A stretch of 6,935 bases of DNA, from the NCBI GenBank assembly GCA_024231375.1, contig JAAEQP010000802.1:1-6935 (forward strand). The letters run 5' to 3'. Positions within the stretch are counted from its first letter, which is position 1. Each line of letters begins with the position of its first letter. This document shows positions 1 through 6,935 of the stretch, one piece after another. A program made the translations under genes and the position numbers. The DNA is from a bacterium (lineage in GTDB: Bacteria; Hydrogenedentota; Hydrogenedentia; Hydrogenedentiales; SLHB01). The notes under the pieces were generated by a model. It was not told the origin of the DNA and ran no database searches. It saw only the letters and a list, made by a program, of their open reading frames with translations.

Positions 1-4
1 CTGC

Positions 5-92
5 AAGAGCGACTGTGAGCGTTTAGGTGTTGGCGAAGAACGGACGGAGGTCACTGGATGAAGAGATCCCTCGGCTTCGCTCGGGATGACGC
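5..92. repeat. Dispersed intergenic repeat, part A, left copy
   Basis: This 88-base stretch aligns without gaps to 4670-4757. I count 12 differences by hand, or about 86% identity. The best conserved part is CTGGATGAAGAGATCCCTCG followed by CTTCGCTCGGGA, which contains an imperfect dyad (ATCCC...GGGAT). Elements of the type GATCCCTCGRCTTCGCTCGGGATGAC (reverse: ATCCCGAGCGAAG...) are known from memory as common intergenic repeats in several bacterial groups. The antisense reading frames through it are artefacts. The right-hand copy begins directly after a stop codon, so this copy may mark the 3' end of a gene lying outside the window. Confidence 0.8.
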
Positions 93-175
93 GGAGGGCG
101 TTTGTTTGAAATGGGAGTGGGGCGGGGACTGGAATCTCTGACAGGATAACGGGATGAGGAGATTGGAGACCTGTC

Positions 176-217
176 GGTCGGAAGATGTGGCTCGGTCGGA
201 GACCGGCCACAACGGAG
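176..217. repeat. Dispersed intergenic repeat, part B, left copy
   Basis: The motif GGTCGGAAGATGTGGC, then GACCGGCCACAACGGAG (201-217), recurs at 4851-4909. The last 17 bases are identical in both copies. Here a small hairpin CGGTC-GGA-GACCG (193-205) sits inside it; the right copy instead carries a longer hairpin at the same place. In both copies part B immediately precedes coding sequence: the HAD remnant here, the kinase gene on the right. The A-to-B order and approximate distance are also the same, so A and B look like the two ends of one composite intergenic element. The stretch between them (93-175) shows nothing recognisable. Confidence 0.65.
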
Positions 218-296
218 CGTCATCCTCGATTCCAAAGGCACGGTGCGCTCGGCGCGCTACTTCGCACCGCTGGGGATGTAGCTGAAGGCGATGCGG
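216..296 (+). pseudogene. Decayed N-terminal fragment of a HAD-family phosphatase
   Basis: Read in frame from 216, this gives SVILDSKGTVRSARYFAPLG, then M, a TAG stop (279-281), and LKAMR. The intact HAD gene has SVIFDFDGTLCSGRYFAPLG at codons 9-28, starting at base 4081. Fourteen of these 20 residues match, and the DNA is similar across the whole stretch without gaps. The catalytic DxD motif is lost: the first Asp remains but the second is Lys. There is no start codon with a ribosome site, and homology stops about where the opposing glycosyltransferase gene ends. This is a remnant of a paralogue, probably cut by a rearrangement, not a functional gene. Confidence 0.7.
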
Positions 297-309
297 CCGG
301 TCCGGGCCG
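294..309 (-). terminator. Possible weak terminator hairpin after the glycosyltransferase gene
   Basis: CGGCC-GGTCCG-GGCCG forms a 5-bp GC stem immediately after the glycosyltransferase stop codon, in the direction of that operon. No T-run follows on the minus strand. It is therefore only a weak candidate for an intrinsic terminator; Rho-dependent ending is equally possible. Confidence 0.25.
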
Positions 310-1617
310 TTAGTTTTCTGTGTCTTTCGTTTCCGGCCCGAAGATTTCGCGAAGGAACCCCGCGGCATTTGCCGGGCCGTCCCATTGAGCGAGCTGGTCG
401 CGGAACGCTTCAACCTTTCTTCTTGCGGCTTCGTTTGCGAGCTGCGTGTCGATTGCTTCGAACACATTGGTTGCTGTATGTCGCCACTTGTTCAGACGGA
501 TGGCGAACCCCTTCCTGGCGCAGGCCTCCAGGTTGGCCTCTTGTTCCGGATGCATGCCCATCCCCACGATGGGCGTTCCGGACAGGCATGCGTTCATGAC
601 GGTGTTTTGCCCTCCATGGATGACAGAGACGTCGGCCATGGGGTTGACCTTGTGGGCGGGCAGGAAACCGGTCACGATGACATTCGACGGGACCTTCACA
701 TCCAGGCGATCCACCAGACCCTTGACGGGCGCGATGACGCGATAGGGCTTGCCTTCGAACCCCTCCAGGATGCTCGCCACGAGCTTGGCTTTCCCTGAAC
801 TCCCCATGGCGAAGTAGATGATGGGCTTGTCTCTCGGAATCCGGGCCACTTCCTCGGGGATATCCGCGTCGAGTTTGGCGACCAGCGGGCCGACGTAGCG
901 TTTGTTCGGCGCGACCTCAGACAGGCCCACCCATTCGGGGATGTCGGCCAGGAGGGTGTAGTCGCCTTCCAGCGCGTCGATGAAGCTCGTGAAGGGCTTG
1001 AGTCCGTGGCGTCTCCCCACTTCGTTGTAGGGCCTGAGCGGGAAGGTGGAGGTCAGGATCCGCCGGTTGAACCGGCGGGTCAGCCTGTCCTCGGAGAAGA
1101 GGCGGCGCAGCCAGTGAAGCCTGTCCGGCCAAGGCTGAAGCCCGGCCTCGTACCATTCGGTGATGCTTGTCGAGTGGAGGACGTTCACGAAGGGAACCTG
1201 CGCTGCTCTGGCGGAGATCGTCACGCTCAAGCACCAGCCGGTCAAGACGGCAGCGGGCCTAATCTCGCGGAACAGGGCGACCTCGTTCTCCACTCGGGGA
1301 GCCAATTCGGCCGCCGAGAAGTAGCCTAACGTGTTCCAGGTTTCGCCGCTGAGCACGACCTGGAGCTGGGCGAGTTTCTGGGGCGTCAGTCGTGGGTTCA
1401 TCTTCTTCAATGTGAAGCCGGCTTCCTCGATCAGTCCTTCGAAGCGGCCGCCGTAGCTCAGGAAGAGGACCTCGAACGACTGCTTCGCCGCCTTGGCGAT
1501 CTCGATCATTCTTCCGGTCTCGGCGAGGTTGTATCCGGCGACAGCAAACACCAAGGTTGGCCGCCGCGTTTCACCCCGGACTGATTCGGCTTCGTTGTCG
1601 ATGTTGCGTGCATTCAT
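310..1617 (-). CDS. GT-B fold glycosyltransferase, GT1/MGT (UGT-like) family
   Basis: The product is a 435-aa cytoplasmic enzyme of the UDP-glycosyltransferase-like group, which moves a sugar from an activated nucleotide donor to an acceptor. The N-terminal half (about residues 15-215) starts with the Rossmann-type strand TLVFAVAGYNLAETGRM and would bind the acceptor. The C-terminal half carries the donor-site signature IHGGQNTVMNACLSGTPIVG (His334 region), followed by PEQEAN (358-362), as in the family's nucleotide-sugar box. Its length is typical. An in-frame ATG at 1632 would add MGGID, but those codons are the Shine-Dalgarno GGGAGGAATTGAC itself. The start at 1617 has ideal spacing and overlaps the stop of the upstream gene (ATGA). 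It is the last gene of a four-gene operon. The acceptor cannot be deduced: family members glycosylate polyketides, macrolides, lipids or phenolics. Confidence 0.9.
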   Translation of the reverse strand: MNARNIDNEAESVRGETRRPTLVFAVAGYNLAETGRMIEIAKAAKQSFEVLFLSYGGRFEGLIEEAGFTLKKMNPRLTPQKLAQLQVVLSGETWNTLGYFSAAELAPRVENEVALFREIRPAAVLTGWCLSVTISARAAQVPFVNVLHSTSITEWYEAGLQPWPDRLHWLRRLFSEDRLTRRFNRRILTSTFPLRPYNEVGRRHGLKPFTSFIDALEGDYTLLADIPEWVGLSEVAPNKRYVGPLVAKLDADIPEEVARIPRDKPIIYFAMGSSGKAKLVASILEGFEGKPYRVIAPVKGLVDRLDVKVPSNVIVTGFLPAHKVNPMADVSVIHGGQNTVMNACLSGTPIVGMGMHPEQEANLEACARKGFAIRLNKWRHTATNVFEAIDTQLANEAARRKVEAFRDQLAQWDGPANAAGFLREIFGPETKDTEN

Positions 1618-1874
1618 GTCAATTCCTCCCAAGTGGTGTGCTCTACAATTCCGAAGGCGCGCAGCGCAGAGGCGAGCCGGACACCGAGGCCGCTCGGCTC
1701 GTCACTAGGATGGTCAATGTGGATGGCCACGTCCGTTTCGAGCCCTCTGCGCCGGTACAGTGTGACGACTTGCGTGCTCGCGTCTTCCTCCCTGATTGAC
1801 TCACGGATCCTGCTACTGAGGGCCTCGGCGGGTTCGCCGGACGAGCGCAAATGGATAATCTCAAGTTGTTTCAT
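1614..1874 (-). CDS. Small conserved-looking protein of unknown function (86 aa)
   Basis: The sequence opens with a beta-strand-like MKQLEIIHLR, then an amphipathic helix (about 12-28), strands VVTLYRR (36-42) and DVAIHID (48-54), and a helix GVRLASALRAFGIVEH (63-78). This alternating pattern suggests a small ferredoxin-like alpha/beta domain, a fold often dimeric. That is inference from pattern alone. I have a general impression of similar hypothetical proteins in other bacteria but cannot name a family. The gene overlaps both neighbours by ATGA: its ATG (1874-1872) overlaps the stop of the 44-aa ORF, and its stop (1616-1614) overlaps the glycosyltransferase start. Such double coupling argues strongly that it is real and made in step with the enzyme. 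A GGAGAGAGAG tract precedes the start. Confidence 0.8.
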   Translation of the reverse strand: MKQLEIIHLRSSGEPAEALSSRIRESIREEDASTQVVTLYRRRGLETDVAIHIDHPSDEPSGLGVRLASALRAFGIVEHTTWEELT

Positions 1875-2005
1875 ACTCTCTCTCCAAGAGATCGGTAGTG
1901 GGCCTCAAGCGTACGCGTGCCTGTCGCGGGCGCCACGACGTCGGTGGTCGCCATGGTCGTGAAGAACGCGAGCACTCGATGCGTCTCTGTTGTCTGCTTC
2001 ATCAT
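1871..2005 (-). CDS. Threonine-rich 44-aa peptide, function unknown
   Basis: This short ORF begins MMKQTTETHRVLAFF and ends EAHYRSLGERV. Ten of its 44 residues are Thr, mostly in three clusters (5-8, 16-21, 28-32). It has no Cys and no clear signal peptide or membrane segment. It starts 13 bp after the stop of the 56-aa gene, behind GAAAGGGACAGCC, which supplies a ribosome site for either of two adjacent ATGs (2005 or 2002). Its stop overlaps the start of the 86-aa gene as ATGA. This fixed arrangement is the main evidence that it is translated. It could be a coupling or leader peptide, a small partner protein, or a substrate for the operon's glycosyltransferase; nothing in the sequence decides between these. 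Confidence 0.6.
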   Translation of the reverse strand: MMKQTTETHRVLAFFTTMATTDVVAPATGTRTLEAHYRSLGERV

Positions 2006-2018
2006 GGCTGTCCCTTTC

Positions 2019-2189
2019 TCACCGGTTCTTCGTGGCCGCAGGCATCAAGGCCCGGCACGCAGAGGCGAGTTCGACTCTCAGAGAGGAGAGAACGGGAAGC
2101 AGATCATCATCAGCCCGTCCTTCGTCAGTCAGCGCCCTGACCAAGTCCTTCGCGGCGATGAGAAGTCGCGTCTCCTGATTCGTCGACAT
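2019..2189 (-). CDS. Small helical protein of unknown function (56 aa)
   Basis: This is the first gene of the minus-strand operon. Its start at 2189 is set by an excellent ribosome site, AAGGAGGA, nine to ten bases upstream. A longer frame open to 2558 is not the gene, because that extension runs through the promoter region and the divergent regulator gene. The protein begins MSTNQETRLLIAAKDLVRAL and looks mainly helical: an amphipathic helix at about 8-21, an acidic stretch (TDEGRADDD), then a second helix (31-48) and a basic tail AATKNR. It has no signal peptide. It could be a small helical bundle or interaction subunit; I recognise no family. Its position right behind the sigma-54 promoter makes it the lead product of the operon. 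Confidence 0.7.
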   Translation of the reverse strand: MSTNQETRLLIAAKDLVRALTDEGRADDDLLPVLSSLRVELASACRALMPAATKNR

Positions 2190-2251
2190 CTCTTCGGTCC
2201 TCCTTCCGAGCGTTCTGCCCGAATCGGGCAACAGCTTGCGTCTTAGGGTAG

Positions 2252-2267
2252 AGCGAGAATCGTGCCA
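2252..2267 (-). promoter_or_regulatory. Sigma-54 (RpoN) promoter of the glycosyltransferase operon
   Basis: Read on the minus strand this is TGGCACGATTCTCGCT. The sigma-54 consensus is TGGCACG-N4-TTGCW, so only one defined base differs (TTGC is TCGC). The essential GG and GC doublets are present at the right spacing. The start site would be near 2241, about 52 bases before the first start codon (2189). The adjacent divergent gene encodes a sigma-54 activator, which makes this site very likely to be real. Confidence 0.8.
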
Positions 2268-2342
2268 GAAGTTCAAGTTGTTTCGTTGCAGTGTTTTGCG
2301 AAGAAAGGCCACCGAAGCGACTGCAGTTATTGGCGATTCGGA

Positions 2343-2371
2343 TTGCTGTATTTCGCAATTCCGGATATAAT
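2343..2371 (+). promoter_or_regulatory. Sigma-70-type promoter of the regulator gene
   Basis: A perfect -10 box, TATAAT (2366-2371), lies 17 bp after a weak -35 box, TTGCTG (2343-2348). Transcription would start near 2378, about 37 bases before the regulator's ATG at 2415. The palindrome at 2354-2375 overlaps the -10 box and spacer, as expected for autorepression. Confidence 0.6.
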
Positions 2372-2375
2372 TGCG
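2354..2375. promoter_or_regulatory. Inverted-repeat operator / upstream activating site
   Basis: CGCAATT and AATTGCG form a perfect 7-bp inverted repeat around an 8-bp spacer, a spacing of about one and a half helical turns between centres. The dyad lies about 120 bp upstream of the predicted sigma-54 start on the minus strand, the usual range for enhancer sites of AAA+ activators. Related half-sites occur nearby: ATTGC at 2342-2346, which also pairs with GCAAT at 2355-2359, and TTGCGAA at 2296-2302. The natural candidate to bind is the Fis-type helix-turn-helix of the adjacent regulator. Confidence 0.6.
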
Positions 2376-2414
2376 GCATATGGCACTTTGTCTGGCCCTT
2401 GTGAGGAGCTGAAC

Positions 2415-3971
2415 ATGGTAGACGACAACGAGTTTTTCAGAAACGTGACGCTGCGAATCTGCGGGCATCTGGAAATCGAGGGAGGTCTGCAGTCGTGCAT
2501 CGACTATATGTCGCAGCATCTTCCCGCGGACACGCTCTACCTCCAACGGCATGAGCATGATGTGGGCGCCATGCGCATCATTGCCCGGGCCGATGCCAGG
2601 AAGGGTGAGAAGATGGACGTCCTGGTTCCCTTCTCGGAAGAGGCCAAGGCTGCGATGGCCCGGATGGCCGGCGTATGGCGGGCTGGGGAAATGCCGCCCG
2701 TACTGGTGTTCAATCGGCCCGAGGAGGAACCAGTCACGCGCTGCATGCTCAAGGCGCTTGGGGAACCCTCCTCCTCAGTCATGAGCCTGCCCCTGTTCAT
2801 CAGGGATGAGATCGTCGGCGCCCTCGCTCTGCTCGCCGAAGGCAACGACCGCTTCAACGACCACCACGCCAAGCTGTACGCATCGCTGAAGGAACCGTTC
2901 TTCGTGGCCATGTCCAACACGCTGAAGCATGAGGAAGTGGTCCGGCTCAAGAACCGATTGGCCGACGACAACCGGTACCTGAACCGCGAGCTGCTCCGGA
3001 GATCGGGGGACGAGATCGTTGGTGTCGACTTTGGCTTGCGCGCGGTGATGCAGCAGGTCCGGCACGTGGCCCCGACCGAGAGTCCGGTCCTGCTCTCCGG
3101 CGAAACGGGCGCCGGCAAGGACGTCATCGCCAACGCCATTCATCTCGGTTCCGCACGGCGAGACGGGCCTTTCATCCCGGTCAACTGCGGCGCGATCCCC
3201 GAGTCCCTCATCGACAGCGAGCTATTCGGCCATGAGAAGGGGGCTTTCACGGGGGCGCTGTCGAAGAAACGGGGCCGTTTCGAACGGGCCGACAAGGGCA
3301 CGATTCTGCTTGACGAGATAGGCGAAATGCCCCTTGAGGCACAGGTACGCCTGCTGCGGGTCCTTCAGCACCGGGAGATCGAACGGGTGGGTGGGGCCGA
3401 CCGCATTTCGGTGGACATCCGAATCGTCGCCGCCACAAACCAGGATCTCGAAGCGATGGTGCGGGCGGGGCGTTTCCGGGAAGATCTCTGGTTCCGGCTT
3501 AACGTTTTTCCGATCACGGTTCCTCCGCTTCGCGAGCGGACCTGCGACATTCCAGCACTCGTGCAGCACTTCATCGAACGGAAGGCCAAGGAACTGAAGG
3601 TAGCGCACACGCCCCAGTTGGCGCCGGGCGCCATCGACGATCTCGTGGCCTATCCATGGCCGGGTAATGTACGGGAACTCGAAAACGTGATCGAACGAGC
3701 CATGATCCTGCACCGGCACGAGCCTCTCCGGTTCGACGGCCTTGGCGCAACGGGTCCGGGCCCGGAAACCACGGAAGCACCAGTTGAAGACGAGGGGCCG
3801 CTCGATCTCGACTCTGTCACCGCGCGCCACATCCGGCGGGTTCTGGGGATGACCAACGGCAAGGTACACGGTCCGGGTGGCGCGGCCGAAGTGCTTGGCG
3901 TCAACGCGAGCACGTTAAGATACCGGATGGAGAAGCTGGGGATACCCTACGGCCGCAAGAGTCAGTGGTAA
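2415..3971 (+). CDS. Sigma-54-dependent transcriptional activator, GAF-AAA+-Fis HTH
   Basis: The product is a 518-aa enhancer-binding protein that uses ATP to open sigma-54 RNA polymerase complexes. Residues about 8-165 resemble a GAF sensory domain, as in NorR- and FhlA-type activators; no phosphorylatable receiver domain is seen. A helical linker (166-197) follows. The AAA+ core (about 200-435) has Walker A GETGAGKD (229-236), the sigma-54-contacting GAFTGA loop (276-281), Walker [12 protein letters not shown] (296-306) and arginine fingers in [13 protein letters not shown] Fis-type helix-turn-helix lies at about 470-511. All key residues are intact. The frame is open from 2262, but the ATG at 2415 has GAGGAG six bases upstream and follows the promoter, so the longer form is rejected. 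It is divergent from the small-protein/glycosyltransferase operon and very likely controls it. The GAF ligand is unknown. Confidence 0.93.
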
Positions 3972-4056
3972 TGCGAGCGGGTTCTGCGTGGGCGTCCCCC
4001 GGTTGGATGGCACTCGTCCCCGGGGCGCTTCTACGCGGACACGGAAGGACTTGCCC

Positions 4057-4668
4057 ATGATTGACCCGGATACCATCACGAGCGTCATTTTCGATTTCGA
4101 CGGCACGCTTTGTTCGGGGCGGTACTTCGCGCCGCTGGGGGCCGACGCCTTGCGTAGGATAGGGCGGTTGGTGTTTGGCGAGAACTCGGCGCGCTGGGCC
4201 GACCCGTGGATGCGCGGCGAGCTGACGTGCCGGGACATCGCGGGGTACTTGAGCGGACATCTTGACCTGTCGGAGGACCACATCCTATCCGCGTTGCGCG
4301 AGGGATGCGCAAACCTGACGTTCAACCCGGCTGTGCATGCCTTCGCGCGGCAGCAGCGGGAAGCCGGACGCAAGACCGCGTTGGTGACCGCCAATATGGA
4401 CGTGTTCACGGAAGTGGTGGTGCCCGCGCACGGGCTCGACGCGTTGTTCGACATCGTGCTGAACACGGCCGACCACGGGACCCTCGACAAGGACGTGCTG
4501 TGGCGCAAGGCGTTCGCGACGTTCGGGCCGGAGCACACGTATGCGTCTTCGCTGTTGATTGAGGACAACCCGAAGATGACGGCGCTGTTTGAGTCGCTGG
4601 GCGGAAATGCGCATCAATATGTGGAAGATGGGGCGTTCCGTATGTGGCTGGCGGAGGTGGGGTTCTGA
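4057..4668 (+). CDS. HAD-superfamily phosphatase (subfamily I)
   Basis: The product is a 203-aa soluble hydrolase. Motif I is FDFDGT, with nucleophile Asp13 and acid/base Asp15. Motif II is LVTAN (Thr111), the motif III lysine is probably Lys145 in DKD, and motif IV is LLIEDNPKM (Glu169, Asp170). Residues about 19-90 form a helical cap. These features indicate a phosphatase or phosphatase-like hydrolase of the phosphoglycolate-phosphatase/haloacid type; the substrate is not evident. An ATG at 3988 would add 23 residues rich in Arg and Pro. The ATG at 4057 is preferred because AAGGA lies eight bases upstream and the protein then begins directly with the core strand. It lies 85 bp after the regulator and may be co-transcribed with it; an imperfect CCCCGG...CCGGGG dyad (3997-4025) lies in that gap. 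A broken paralogue occurs at 216-296. Confidence 0.85.
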   Translation: MIDPDTITSVIFDFDGTLCSGRYFAPLGADALRRIGRLVFGENSARWADPWMRGELTCRDIAGYLSGHLDLSEDHILSALREGCANLTFNPAVHAFARQQREAGRKTALVTANMDVFTEVVVPAHGLDALFDIVLNTADHGTLDKDVLWRKAFATFGPEHTYASSLLIEDNPKMTALFESLGGNAHQYVEDGAFRMWLAEVGF

Positions 4669-4669
4669 G

Positions 4670-4757
4670 AAGAGCGGCTGTGAGCGTTTGGATGTCAGCG
4701 ATGAACGGACGAAGAGCGCTGGATGAAGAGATCCCTCGACTTCGCTCGGGAAGACGC
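4670..4757. repeat. Dispersed intergenic repeat, part A, right copy
   Basis: This is the partner of the repeat at 5-92 and aligns with it without gaps. It begins immediately after the HAD stop codon. The shared core is CTGGATGAAGAGATCCCTCG plus CTTCGCTCGGGA. The following 93 bases (4758-4850) are GC-rich and contain no recognisable gene. Confidence 0.8.
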
Positions 4758-4850
4758 ACGCCGGGGACGGCGCGATCCGAAGAAGGCGGGGACGCCCTCT
4801 TCTGGCGTCTGGGCTGATGGGGCGTTGACGGAGAAGAGGAGCGGAGCTTC

Positions 4851-4909
4851 GGTCGGGGATGTGGCGCGGTCAGAGCGCGGCCAAGAGGCCGCGACCGGCC
4901 ACAACGGAG
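4851..4909. repeat. Dispersed intergenic repeat, part B, right copy, with hairpin
   Basis: GGTCGGGGATGTGGC and GACCGGCCACAACGGAG (4893-4909) match the left copy at 176-217. Compared with that copy, this one has extra sequence forming a tight hairpin, CGCGGCC-AAGA-GGCCGCG (4876-4893). It lies directly upstream of the kinase gene and may supply its promoter or leader, though no good -35/-10 pair is visible. Confidence 0.65.
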
Positions 4910-4940
4910 GGCCGGGAGCGCGACAGTGATGGGAGAATCC

Positions 4941-5711
4941 ATGCAGTTTCCAGCGGAATTGGGGCCGTATCTTGAAGGATGCGAGGCGGAAGGCGTCGAG
5001 ATTGGCATGTCGACGTCGGACGTGTTTCGAATGACGCGGGATGGATGCGCCGAATGGGTCGTGAAACGCGCGCCCGTGGCAGATCGCGACGCGCTCGAGG
5101 ATGAGGCGGCGCGGCTGCGGTGGCTGGACGGGCGTGCTCCGGTTCCCCGTGTGGCTGCGTTCACGGTTGACGACGGGCACGCCTATCTGCTGATGGAGGC
5201 GCTGCCGGGCAGGGATGCCACGGTTGCCGCTGCTAGATCGCCCGAGGCGATCGTGCGCGGCATGGCTCGGGCGCTGCGTGAACTTCATGCACAGCCGGTA
5301 GACGGGTGCCCATTCGATGAACGTCTGGATGCGAAGATCCGGGCGGCGCATGAACACGCGTGCGCGGGGTTGGTGGACGAAATGGACTTCGACGAGGAAC
5401 GTCTCGGCGTACCCGTCGACCAGTTGCTCGATCAGTTGGAGCGCGACCGGCCGAAACACGAGGACCTGGTGCTGACCCATGGCGACGCATGTTTGCCGAA
5501 CTACATCTTCGACGGCGACCGCTTCACGGGGTTCGTGGATTGTGGGCGCTTCGGCGTGGCGGACCGATACCAGGACCTTGCACTGGCGGCGCGCAGCACG
5601 ATCTACAACCTGGGGCCGGACTGGGTGCAGCCTTTCTTCGATGCATATGGACTGCCCCAACCGGACGAAGGGCTCTTGGCCTACTACCGCCTGTTGGACG
5701 AGTTCCCTTGA
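4941..5711 (+). CDS. aph(3'): Aminoglycoside 3'-phosphotransferase (APH(3')) homologue
   Basis: The enzyme class phosphorylates the 3'-hydroxyl of aminoglycosides such as kanamycin with ATP or GTP, in the cytoplasm. From the ATG at 4941 it is 256 aa, close to the usual ~260-270. Visible motifs are the nucleotide loop with MSTSDVFRM (23-31), the ATP-binding lysine in VVKRAP (Lys42), catalytic HGDACLPN (180-187; Asp182, Asn187) and metal-binding DCGRFGVADRYQDLALA from Asp200. The spacing Asp182-Asn187-Asp200 equals that known for APH(3')-IIIa (190-195-208). The C-terminal YYRLLDEF is also characteristic, ending one residue differently from the usual EFF. The start is ambiguous: GTG 4926, ATG 4929 or ATG 4941, the last with GGGAG just upstream. 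No mobile element flanks it, so it looks like a chromosomal gene; its native substrate could differ from clinical drugs. Confidence 0.92.
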   Translation: MQFPAELGPYLEGCEAEGVEIGMSTSDVFRMTRDGCAEWVVKRAPVADRDALEDEAARLRWLDGRAPVPRVAAFTVDDGHAYLLMEALPGRDATVAAARSPEAIVRGMARALRELHAQPVDGCPFDERLDAKIRAAHEHACAGLVDEMDFDEERLGVPVDQLLDQLERDRPKHEDLVLTHGDACLPNYIFDGDRFTGFVDCGRFGVADRYQDLALAARSTIYNLGPDWVQPFFDAYGLPQPDEGLLAYYRLLDEFP

Positions 5712-5721
5712 GACAATGAAC

Positions 5722-5736
5722 GGCTCTGTCTGAGCC
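5722..5736 (+). other. Short hairpin after the kinase gene
   Basis: GGCTC-TGTCT-GAGCC forms a 5-bp stem 10 bases after the kinase stop codon and just before the ribosome site of the mini-ORF. There is no T-run, so it is unlikely to be a strong terminator; it could stabilise or separate transcripts. Confidence 0.3.
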
Positions 5737-5760
5737 AGAACGAAGAGGAGGCGTGAAACC

Positions 5761-5820
5761 ATGTTGGCACTGAGAATACAGAGTGTTGCGTTGTCACGTC
5801 GCCAGCGGACTCGCCGCTAG
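5761..5820 (+). CDS. 19-aa Arg-rich mini-ORF, possible leader peptide
   Basis: The ORF encodes MLALRIQSVALSRRQRTRR and a TAG stop. Its start is preceded by AGGAGG (5746-5751) with a nine-base spacer, one of the best ribosome sites in the window. The peptide has seven Arg residues, six of them in the last eight positions. It lies 202 bases upstream of the methyltransferase start, in a leader able to form alternative hairpins (5829-6001). Known leader peptides regulate downstream genes by ribosome stalling or attenuation, sometimes at Arg-containing motifs. That role is inference here. It could also be a fortuitous short frame behind an otherwise non-coding ribosome-like site. Confidence 0.45.
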   Translation: MLALRIQSVALSRRQRTRR

Positions 5821-5828
5821 ACACATCG

Positions 5829-5922
5829 ACGTCCTTTCGCTAAGACCGGCCGGTTGACGACGGTCGGTGTGGGCCACCGCTCTGTCGGATGGCCGTCCTT
5901 TCCCTGTCGAGGCCGTGGACGT
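5829..5922 (+). ncRNA. Candidate multi-branched structured leader RNA
   Basis: Hand folding gives a closing stem ACGTCC (5829-5834) with GGACGT (5917-5922). It encloses GACCG/CGGTC (5844-5848 with 5861-5865), CGGTG/CACCG (5865-5869 with 5875-5879; the two share one base) and ATGGCC/GGCCGT (5889-5894 with 5911-5916, one G-U pair). The last helix abuts the closing stem, allowing coaxial stacking. It lies between the mini-ORF and the methyltransferase and matches no riboswitch class I know. GC-rich DNA produces such pairings by chance, so this is tentative. Confidence 0.3.
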
Positions 5923-5966
5923 GACACGCACCCACGGTTCCTCCATTTCTATCGACGCCAATCACT

Positions 5967-5994
5967 GAGCCGTGGAATAGCCTTTCCGCGGCTC
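5967..5994 (+). promoter_or_regulatory. Candidate attenuator or sequestering hairpin before the methyltransferase gene
   Basis: GAGCCGTGGAA (5967-5977) pairs with TTCCGCGGCTC (5984-5994) in an 11-bp stem with one G-U pair and a six-base loop. The left arm has other partners: CCGTGG (5970-5975) pairs with CCACGG (5932-5937), and GTGGAA (5972-5977) with TTCCAC (5996-6001). Mutually exclusive pairings of this kind are typical of attenuators. There is no T-run after the stem. The methyltransferase ribosome site AAGGA (6008-6012) lies 13 bases beyond it. Confidence 0.4.
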
Positions 5995-6022
5995 GTTCCA
6001 CTTTGAGAAGGAAGTCTTACCA

Positions 6023-6799
6023 ATGACAGACACAAACTACGCGAGATCCAACAAGTACGAAGACCTGGACACCATCTACGAGCAGTGCAGTGGACCGGGC
6101 GGTTTGAAGCTGGCCGAGTTCATTGCTGACAAGATCGATTTGCAGCCCGGAGCCCGCCTGATTGACGCCGGGTTCAACCAAGGATACCAGACCTGTTTCC
6201 TTGCCGAGGAGTACGGGGTAAACGTCGTAGGCATCGACCCGTGGGACGACCCGTCGAACGAGGTGGGAACCCCCTTCGTCGAATGGCTGATGCGCAACGC
6301 GCGTGCCTGGGGCGTCGAGGACCGAATCCTGGCCGTCAAGATGGGACTGCCCGACACCCGGTTCGCGGACGGCTCGTTCGATGCGGCCTATTGCACAACG
6401 GCACTGAACATGGTCCGTGAGTCCCAAGGTGAAGACCGGTATCGAGAATGCCTGGCGGAAGTCACGCGCGTGATGCGGCCCGGAACGCTGTTCGGCTACG
6501 GCGACCCCATGCATCTCGATGTCGAAATCCCGGAGGACCTGGCGCCGCTGGTCACTGAGGGGGAGGGGGCATGGGCGGACGGTTTCGCGACCATCGACGA
6601 AACGGTCGACGCGTTTCGCGCGGTGGGCTTCGAGGTCGTCGAGGCGGACTACGCGCCCGACGCCCGCCTCTGGTGGGAGGAATACGCCCGGCACGATGTG
6701 AACTGCCGGGCCAACCCCGAGGGCGAGCCACGGACCATAGAAGTGGACGGCGGACGGTGGCTCAGCTACGGGTATGTGATTGCGAGGAAGCCGGAATAG
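6023..6799 (+). CDS. Class I SAM-dependent methyltransferase
   Basis: The product is a 258-aa soluble methyltransferase with a Rossmann-like fold. An N-terminal helical cap (about 1-42) contains SNKYEDLDTIYEQCSGPGG. Motif I is LIDAGFNQGYQT (Asp48, Gly50), and the acidic residue after strand 2 is Asp72 in VVGIDPWDD. SFDAAYCTTALNM forms the strand-4 region and VTRVMRPGTLFGYGDPMH the post-core loop and strand 5. The C-terminal section (about 170-258) has WWEEYARHDV and ends in GRWLSYGYVIARKPE. The fold is that of small-molecule type-11 methyltransferases; no rRNA- or DNA-specific motif is seen, and the acceptor is unknown. The ATG at 6023 has AAGGA ten bases upstream. It lies 311 bases after the kinase gene behind a structured leader, so it may be separately regulated. 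Confidence 0.88.
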   Translation: MTDTNYARSNKYEDLDTIYEQCSGPGGLKLAEFIADKIDLQPGARLIDAGFNQGYQTCFLAEEYGVNVVGIDPWDDPSNEVGTPFVEWLMRNARAWGVEDRILAVKMGLPDTRFADGSFDAAYCTTALNMVRESQGEDRYRECLAEVTRVMRPGTLFGYGDPMHLDVEIPEDLAPLVTEGEGAWADGFATIDETVDAFRAVGFEVVEADYAPDARLWWEEYARHDVNCRANPEGEPRTIEVDGGRWLSYGYVIARKPE

Positions 6800-6826
6800 A
6801 CCCTATGCACAGCCCTTGAAGATTCT

Positions 6827-6875
6827 GCCGGAGCGGTGAAGGCTATTGCCGTGTGGCGATGCCCACCGCTCCGGC
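6827..6875. repeat. Strong inverted repeat downstream of the methyltransferase gene
   Basis: GCCGGAGCGGTG (6827-6838) and CACCGCTCCGGC (6864-6875) are perfectly complementary over 12 bp. With flanking T-A, C-G and T-G pairs the stem reaches 15 bp (6824-6878). The 25-base loop contains smaller dyads (GGC-TATT-GCC, GGC-GAT-GCC). It starts 27 bases after the methyltransferase stop. It could be a Rho-independent-like or bidirectional terminator or an mRNA-stabilising 3' structure, though no T-run follows. The remaining bases to 6935 show no gene. Confidence 0.7.
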
Positions 6876-6935
6876 GGACCGCCAACCTTTGATGGGCTTG
6901 GTGTGTATGGGATACTCTGAACCAGAACAGCCACA

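Follow-up and report, generated by a model that had tools for sequence, protein, structure and literature searches.

A small-protein family that accompanies a divergent sigma-54 activator, and not the adjacent glycosyltransferase, at a Hydrogenedentota locus

We analyzed a 6,935-nucleotide stretch of DNA from a bacterium of the Hydrogenedentota (contig JAAEQP010000802.1 of assembly GCA_024231375.1, positions 1 to 6,935; hereafter the window), in which a short operon on the minus strand lies divergent to the gene of a sigma-54 activator. The operon holds the gene of a protein of 86 amino acids (aa), the main subject of this work, together with two shorter open reading frames (ORFs) and a glycosyltransferase (GT) gene. 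An earlier note on this DNA had described the order of these genes, a 13-bp gap from the 56-aa to the 44-aa ORF, and ATGA overlaps joining the next two pairs of genes (1871-1874 and 1614-1617), all of which are exact in the sequence. The features, with positions in the window, are as follows:

2415-3971, plus strand: divergent sigma-54 activator, with a GAF-like N-terminal domain, an AAA+ domain with GAFTGA and a Fis-type helix-turn-helix
2354-2375: candidate activator site, a perfect inverted repeat (CGCAATT-8-AATTGCG) 85 bp upstream of the promoter
2252-2268, minus strand: predicted sigma-54 promoter (-24/-12), 62 bp 5' of the 56-aa start
2019-2189, minus strand: 56-aa ORF, an orphan; first ORF 3' of the sigma-54 promoter, with a good ribosome site
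1871-2005, minus strand: 44-aa ORF, a relic of an NmrA-type short-chain dehydrogenase/reductase (SDR) gene
1614-1874, minus strand: gene of the 86-aa protein, from a conserved small-protein family that is undescribed
310-1617 (ATG at 1617), minus strand: GT1-type glycosyltransferase (UDPGT/EryCIII-like), the enzyme of the window's copy of the module

The promoter sequence CTGGCACGATTCTCGCT (2268-2252, minus strand) carries 13 of the 14 letters of the sigma-54 consensus, and reaches 16.0 of 17.0 against a weighted consensus; when the intergenic region was shuffled 500 times at the mononucleotide level, no shuffle scored as high, which bears out the sigma-54 operon proposed before. Ribosome sites had been reported 5' of the 56-aa ORF (GGAGGA) and of the GT (GGGAGGAA); both are present, and a further Shine-Dalgarno-like sequence, GGAGAGAGAG, precedes the 86-aa ORF. 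The divergent gene fits the dedicated activator that had been claimed: its AAA+ domain (PF00158, 232.7 bits) contains GAFTGA at residue 276 and the Walker A motif GETGAGK, and by these motifs and the adjacent -24/-12 promoter the protein is a sigma-54 activator, or bacterial enhancer-binding protein. Its N-terminus is GAF-like at a sub-threshold score that leaves it outside the GAF family proper (GAF_2, 22.0 bits against a cut-off of 28.6, E 2e-4), its C-terminus likewise falls below the cut-off of HTH_8 (19.1 against 22 bits), and the NCBIfam models of FhlA, NifA and NorR all score under their cut-offs. The best reading of the circuit type is one-component sigma-54 control, and the inducible function suggested earlier is plausible given the sigma-54 operon and its dedicated activator.

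The 86-aa ORF is certainly a real gene, judging by the extent of its family. In a search of 5.8 billion clustered proteins, 103 sequences were found at E<=0.001 including the window's own, that is, 102 homologues, 47-71% identical, none of which carries a precomputed Pfam domain. The 86-aa protein itself has no credible Pfam, NCBIfam or PDB match; 33 diverse members (alignment A2) scanned singly gave isolated Pfam or NCBIfam matches, none better than E 0.013, and the family profile found no matching solved structure in the PDB (best E 0.21 and 0.13). By these searches the family, whose members span 86-90 aa, is uncatalogued. Across 31 diverse members (alignment A4), as low as 19% identical to the window protein, residues E5, G75 and W82 never vary, and I7, R10, D48, S61 and L71 hardly do. 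Five pairs were analyzed for the ratio of nonsynonymous to synonymous substitutions (dN/dS), two of which, including one with the window's own gene, are saturated; the remaining pairs, among the relatives L023, L024 and L025, gave 0.14, 0.18 and 0.22 at high dS (1.2-2.3). Purifying selection, for which the earlier note had asked, thus acts on the family in these relatives, and the window's own pair is saturated. Codon usage was dropped as evidence on the small ORFs because it fails even on the 86-aa gene: each of the three has a lower score than the five large genes used for training.

Profile searches found carriers of the family in two phyla, that of genome G005 (8 of 297 genomes) and that of G001 (Planctomycetota according to the locus record; 2 of 246). 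Since each genome contributed no more than a fixed maximum of scored candidates, these counts are lower bounds. No carrier was found among 299 genomes in the phylum of G002 or 201 in that of G003, searches run without a positive control, and a search of 68 Hydrogenedentota genomes, again without a positive control, detected neither the family nor the HAD gene of the window. A phage or plasmid origin was rejected on empty searches: the closest homologue (P0002) had no tblastn match in the plasmid and phage collections, and none of eight candidate stretches from a profile scan of viral contigs was confirmed.

The GT is a member of the GT1/UDPGT family (PF00201, 38 bits, cut-off 19.5; PF06722, 35.8 bits, cut-off 31.7), and its 72.6 bits against TIGR01426, the macrolide glycosyltransferase (MGT) model, lie below that model's cut-off of 260. 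At window positions 1440-1570, this GT and three relatives read AGYNLAET or AAYNLAET at what we take to be the place of the GHxxP motif, with the catalytic histidine, of GT1 enzymes; the HGG region is canonical by eye. Five relatives of the GT were found, 48-76% identical, two of them partial (L004 and L005), and the best of these, at 76%, is a partial sequence in a Hydrogenedentota record. Neither the 86-aa gene nor the activator's sensor domain was detected at any of the five loci (best E 1.1 and 1.7), of which L003 is short, L004 lacks sequence on one flank, and L004 and L005 contain partial matches. We therefore rejected a tie between the 86-aa protein and the GT. The earlier note had presented three small genes coupled to the GT, and had named their absence beside related GTs as grounds for abandoning the idea; this absence is what was found for the 86-aa family, the 44-aa ORF is the stump of an SDR gene, and the 56-aa ORF is without relatives.

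Recurrence beside related sigma-54 activators, in turn, is strong. The profile of the 86-aa family yielded 13 intact loci, 11 from the search of the G005 phylum (13 places minus two) and two from that of the G001 phylum, and in 12 of them an activator 49-60% identical to the window's lies divergent to the operon carrying the small gene. Set aside were a further copy whose upstream side is cut off by the contig start (G052:C129), a 28-position fragment abutting an activator fragment (G179:C356) and a match antisense within an activator-like gene (G097, one of 17 places in one further search); loci L098, L105 and L107, reached by way of the activator, stand outside this count. The small gene is first in the operon in nine of the 12 loci and second in three (L019, L022 and L025). 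At the exception, L024, it follows a 653-aa gene, by eye like the S15 hydrolase of L025, and the activator is absent. In 10 of 13 loci (the window and 12 others) the sigma-54 site facing the operon is equalled by at most 6 of 500 shuffles. The inverted repeats vary from locus to locus, and a common activator-binding motif was dropped as a candidate.

The pairing extends to the divergence of the two proteins. Distances in the tree of the activator's sensor domain and in that of the small protein are correlated over 16 pairs (r=0.79), and remain so over 14 pairs after the near-duplicates L105 and L025 are dropped (r=0.72), values that none of 10,000 permutations reached in either case. A single genome, G005, contains four activator/small-protein pairs, each with different cargo. 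The 86-aa protein is thus strongly tied to the activator and not to the GT, a tie that is weaker in the reverse direction.

The enzymes encoded beside the small gene change almost from locus to locus:

L019: NmrA-type SDR
L020: amine-oxidase-like flavoenzyme and SDR
L021: ATC-hydrolase-like protein
L022: SRPBCC protein and SDR
L025: S15/PepX hydrolase; likewise L029, beside a cut copy
L026: HlyD/CusB-type membrane-fusion protein, then, by eye, a resistance-nodulation-division (RND) pump
L027: DUF6064
L028: methyltransferase
L030: acyl-CoA ligase and acyl-CoA dehydrogenase
L037: ApbA-type reductase and alpha/beta hydrolase

The contig of L023 stops just past the small gene, and the neighbours of L038 lie outside this comparison. 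As a side observation, the same activator subfamily lies divergent to highly varied operons at loci L069-L108, where, by eye from sequence starts, there are apparently aldehyde ferredoxin oxidoreductases, xanthine-dehydrogenase-like, 2-hydroxyacyl-CoA dehydratase-like and azoreductase-like genes, and RND efflux.

One of these neighbours accounts for the 44-aa ORF. The intact SDR of L019 lies 24 bp 5' of the 86-aa homologue, and its C-terminus aligns with the 44-aa ORF (17 of 33 residues identical, 52%; tblastn E 2e-5). The sole relative of this ORF at E<=1 is P0104, a partial protein named SDR, 90% identical over 31 residues. A second SDR, L124 (44% identical to that of L019), can be aligned at its tail, its direct match to the 44-aa ORF being non-significant (E 3.7). 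By sequence, residues ~11-43 are homologous to the SDR C-terminus, and the first ~12 may be the N-terminus, which would imply an internal deletion; the likeness there is weak (a shared HRVL; 860 of 20,000 shuffles are as good). We read the ORF as an SDR gene that has lost its middle, either by deletion in the organism or in assembly. Compared with an NmrA-type SDR it retains a C-terminus and misses the NAD-binding body; with a significant alignment confined to the C-terminal ~33 residues and no Rossmann nucleotide-binding N-terminus, it does not qualify as a working SDR. The 56-aa ORF found no homologue but itself in a word-sharing search of the protein collection and no Pfam or NCBIfam match; its translation is at most plausible, given the good ribosome site and its place after the promoter. 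The earlier statement that no family is recognizable for the small proteins therefore stands for the 56-aa and 86-aa products, the latter from an undescribed family, and fails for the 44-aa ORF.

That note had proposed the 44-aa and 56-aa ORFs as functional micropeptides of the operon, which their intact frames, tight spacing and ribosome sites would support. We consider this very unlikely, in view of the colinearity of the 44-aa ORF with the SDR C-terminus in both L019 and P0104, the lack of homologues of the 56-aa ORF, and further debris in the window, a HAD fragment at about 215-275. We also rejected the three small ORFs as one system, the 86-aa gene being the only conserved free-standing gene among them. 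The region does carry other gene debris besides the 44-aa relic: the stretch at about 215-275 is a 20-codon relic like the start of the window's HAD gene (4080-4140), and an 88-bp repeat, 86% identical, links 5-92 with 4670-4757. Elsewhere in the window, the gene at 4941-5708 exceeds the NCBIfam cut-off for APH(3') aminoglycoside phosphotransferases (302.5 against 205 bits).

An indication of what the 86-aa protein may be comes from divergent members of its family. Profile A2 finds five members outside A2 (L037, L038, L098, L105 and L107) at 1.0e-24 to 1.2e-7. The domain cut out of L105 is matched by the antibiotic biosynthesis monooxygenase (ABM) model PF03992 at 4.7e-5 with 23.9 bits, above the cut-off of 23.1, and those cut out of L038 (6.9e-4) and L098 (2.5e-3) are matched below it; L105 also matches LsrG (3qmq) at E 0.0022. 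The transitive link provided by these three matches makes it probable that the 86-aa protein is a remote ABM-like protein, with a dimeric alpha+beta barrel. It resembles the ABM superfamily (PF03992; LsrG, ArqI/PA0709) in its size and in the order beta-alpha-beta-beta-alpha-beta, read by eye from the family alignment, and differs in the set E5, D48 and W82 (with H52 and H79 in closer members), which is the family's own among those compared. ArqI is likewise a small ABM protein, one that binds the CoA ligase PqsA; its operon is induced by stress and has two genes, the other encoding a detoxifying enzyme (PMC12274486). The words sigma54, sigma-54 and enhancer are absent from that source. Small ABM proteins also include non-catalytic fidelity factors (PMC6689052), and one table line of PMC13207237 lists a protein with an ABM domain under a predicted RpoN site.

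Because the small protein tracks the activator and not the enzyme, we place it on the regulatory side, and we tentatively favour, at somewhat less than even weight, a modular inducible sigma-54 circuit with exchangeable enzymes in which the small accessory protein tunes the activator. In such a circuit, the GAF-like domain of the divergent activator would bind a small inducer, probably lipophilic or aromatic; the induced activator would open the sigma-54 promoter, so that the small protein and the GT are made; and the operon's enzyme would modify or dispose of the compound, the GT of the window glycosylating it. The small protein would bind the inducer or the enzyme's product and tune the activator, by feedback or attenuation, which would explain its constant association with the activator across changing enzymes. 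The SDR relic would be a remnant of the enzyme from an earlier version of the circuit. Rather more doubtful is the narrower proposal of an undescribed two-protein sensing module of uncultured bacteria, in which the GAF-like sigma-54 activator is joined by a dedicated ~90-aa ABM-like ligand-binding protein that is made from the activator's own target operon and sets the threshold of the response. Such a module would occur with mutually unrelated cargo: glycosyltransferase, flavoenzymes, hydrolases and efflux.

Several observations weigh against this regulatory proposal. The sigma-54 sites of L021, L022 and L030 are not clearly above chance (equalled in 71, 32 and 35 of 500 shuffles). A cruder earlier test of correlated divergence used 13 pairs, in one of which the small protein was read in a wrong frame; the whole activator gave r=0.42 (p=0.04), its sensor domain r=0.38 (p=0.01) and its AAA+ domain r=0.55 (p=0.03). 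Part of the correlation can be explained by shared organismal history. The activator can also do without the small protein, since the small gene lies beside only 13 of 50 related activators, found in the 297 genomes of the G005 phylum at E<=1e-30 with a sensor-domain profile built from paired activators; these are ten found previously and three of 40 newly fetched, for each of which 1.6-5.1 kb of upstream sequence was searched with profile A2. On the activator tree (52 sequences, with the partial activator L108 omitted) the carriers, namely these thirteen together with the window, L037 and L038, are scattered, requiring 12 changes against a shuffled mean of 13.9, with 82 of 500 shuffles as low. 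The window protein, moreover, matches no ABM model and stays outside PF03992, no ABM model matched at E<=1 in 28 of the 31 members scanned (three match), and L105 within its full-length protein scores 19.3 against the cut-off of 23.1. Finally, in L098 (779-2713) and L105 (779-2692) one reading frame covers both the small domain and a FAD_binding_2 flavoprotein, which suggests a role on the enzyme side; in both, the flavoprotein part has a strong internal ribosome site ahead of it and, by eye, a twin-arginine-type (TAT) signal.

The patchy distribution would suit a gene inherited from an old operon and now being lost, with a general function such as by-product detoxification and no special tie to its neighbours, as would the presence of a different small family (A5) as first gene in the divergent operon of five related activators. 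This is an unlikely account given the low dN/dS among the three relatives and the position beside this activator subfamily in all but one of the intact loci. The simplest account of the distribution is an old activator/small-protein pairing with repeated loss. The A5 family (L075:4284-4580, L076:960-1307, L077:4550-4750, L078:917-1252 and L083:1003-1359) has a TMEGMLIExxGCxSL-like motif, repeated in four of its five members, and two members scanned gave no credible Pfam match; in these five operons, where A5 is the first gene called, the 86-aa family was undetected, and the five activators form one group with 96% support in the Shimodaira-Hasegawa-like approximate likelihood ratio test (SH-aLRT).

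The in-frame flavoproteins bear on a possible alternative that stands close behind the regulatory reading, namely that the 86-aa protein is an ABM-like partner of whichever enzyme the operon has, carrying out a small catalytic step on that enzyme's substrate or chaperoning the substrate, as ABM proteins do in polyketide assembly. The ABM link of the divergent members, the operons shared with redox and hydrolytic enzymes, and the roles published for ABM proteins, non-catalytic in one case and enzyme-binding in the other (available parts of PMC6689052 and PMC12274486), are all consistent with it. The cargo, however, shares no chemistry (glycosyl transfer, an efflux membrane-fusion protein, acyl-CoA ligation, methyl transfer), yet the pair of small protein and activator persists.

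Tuning of the activator by the small protein, as we propose, would have partial counterparts in known systems. NorR-NorVW is a one-component sigma-54 activator with a divergent target operon, and its activator adjoins a divergent sigma-54 promoter as in the window. In FleN-FleQ and NifL-NifA the sigma-54 activator is inhibited by a partner, which is an ATPase in the first and a sensor protein in the second; in them, as here, a second protein is inherited with the activator, which it would modulate in the window as well. We know of no sigma-54 activator partner of the ABM-like kind, ~90 aa long and expressed from the target operon, and searches of the open-licence literature showed no paper on the activator/small-protein pairing. 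In D. vulgaris, according to the available part of PMC4641369, six one-component activator genes adjoin a divergent sigma-54 promoter, an arrangement also seen in DVU3142-ohc. The system of the window differs from both NorR-NorVW and DVU3142-ohc in adding a conserved small protein and an exchangeable enzyme downstream.

Through this analysis, a small-protein family missing from the catalogues acquires a firm genomic partner and a role that can be tested. It also brings to notice a group of enzymes, probably inducible and under sigma-54 control, behind a common switch that a single reporter assay could read out. If the small protein does tune the activator, sigma-54 control would be modulated here in a new way, and the protein might serve as a biosensor part.

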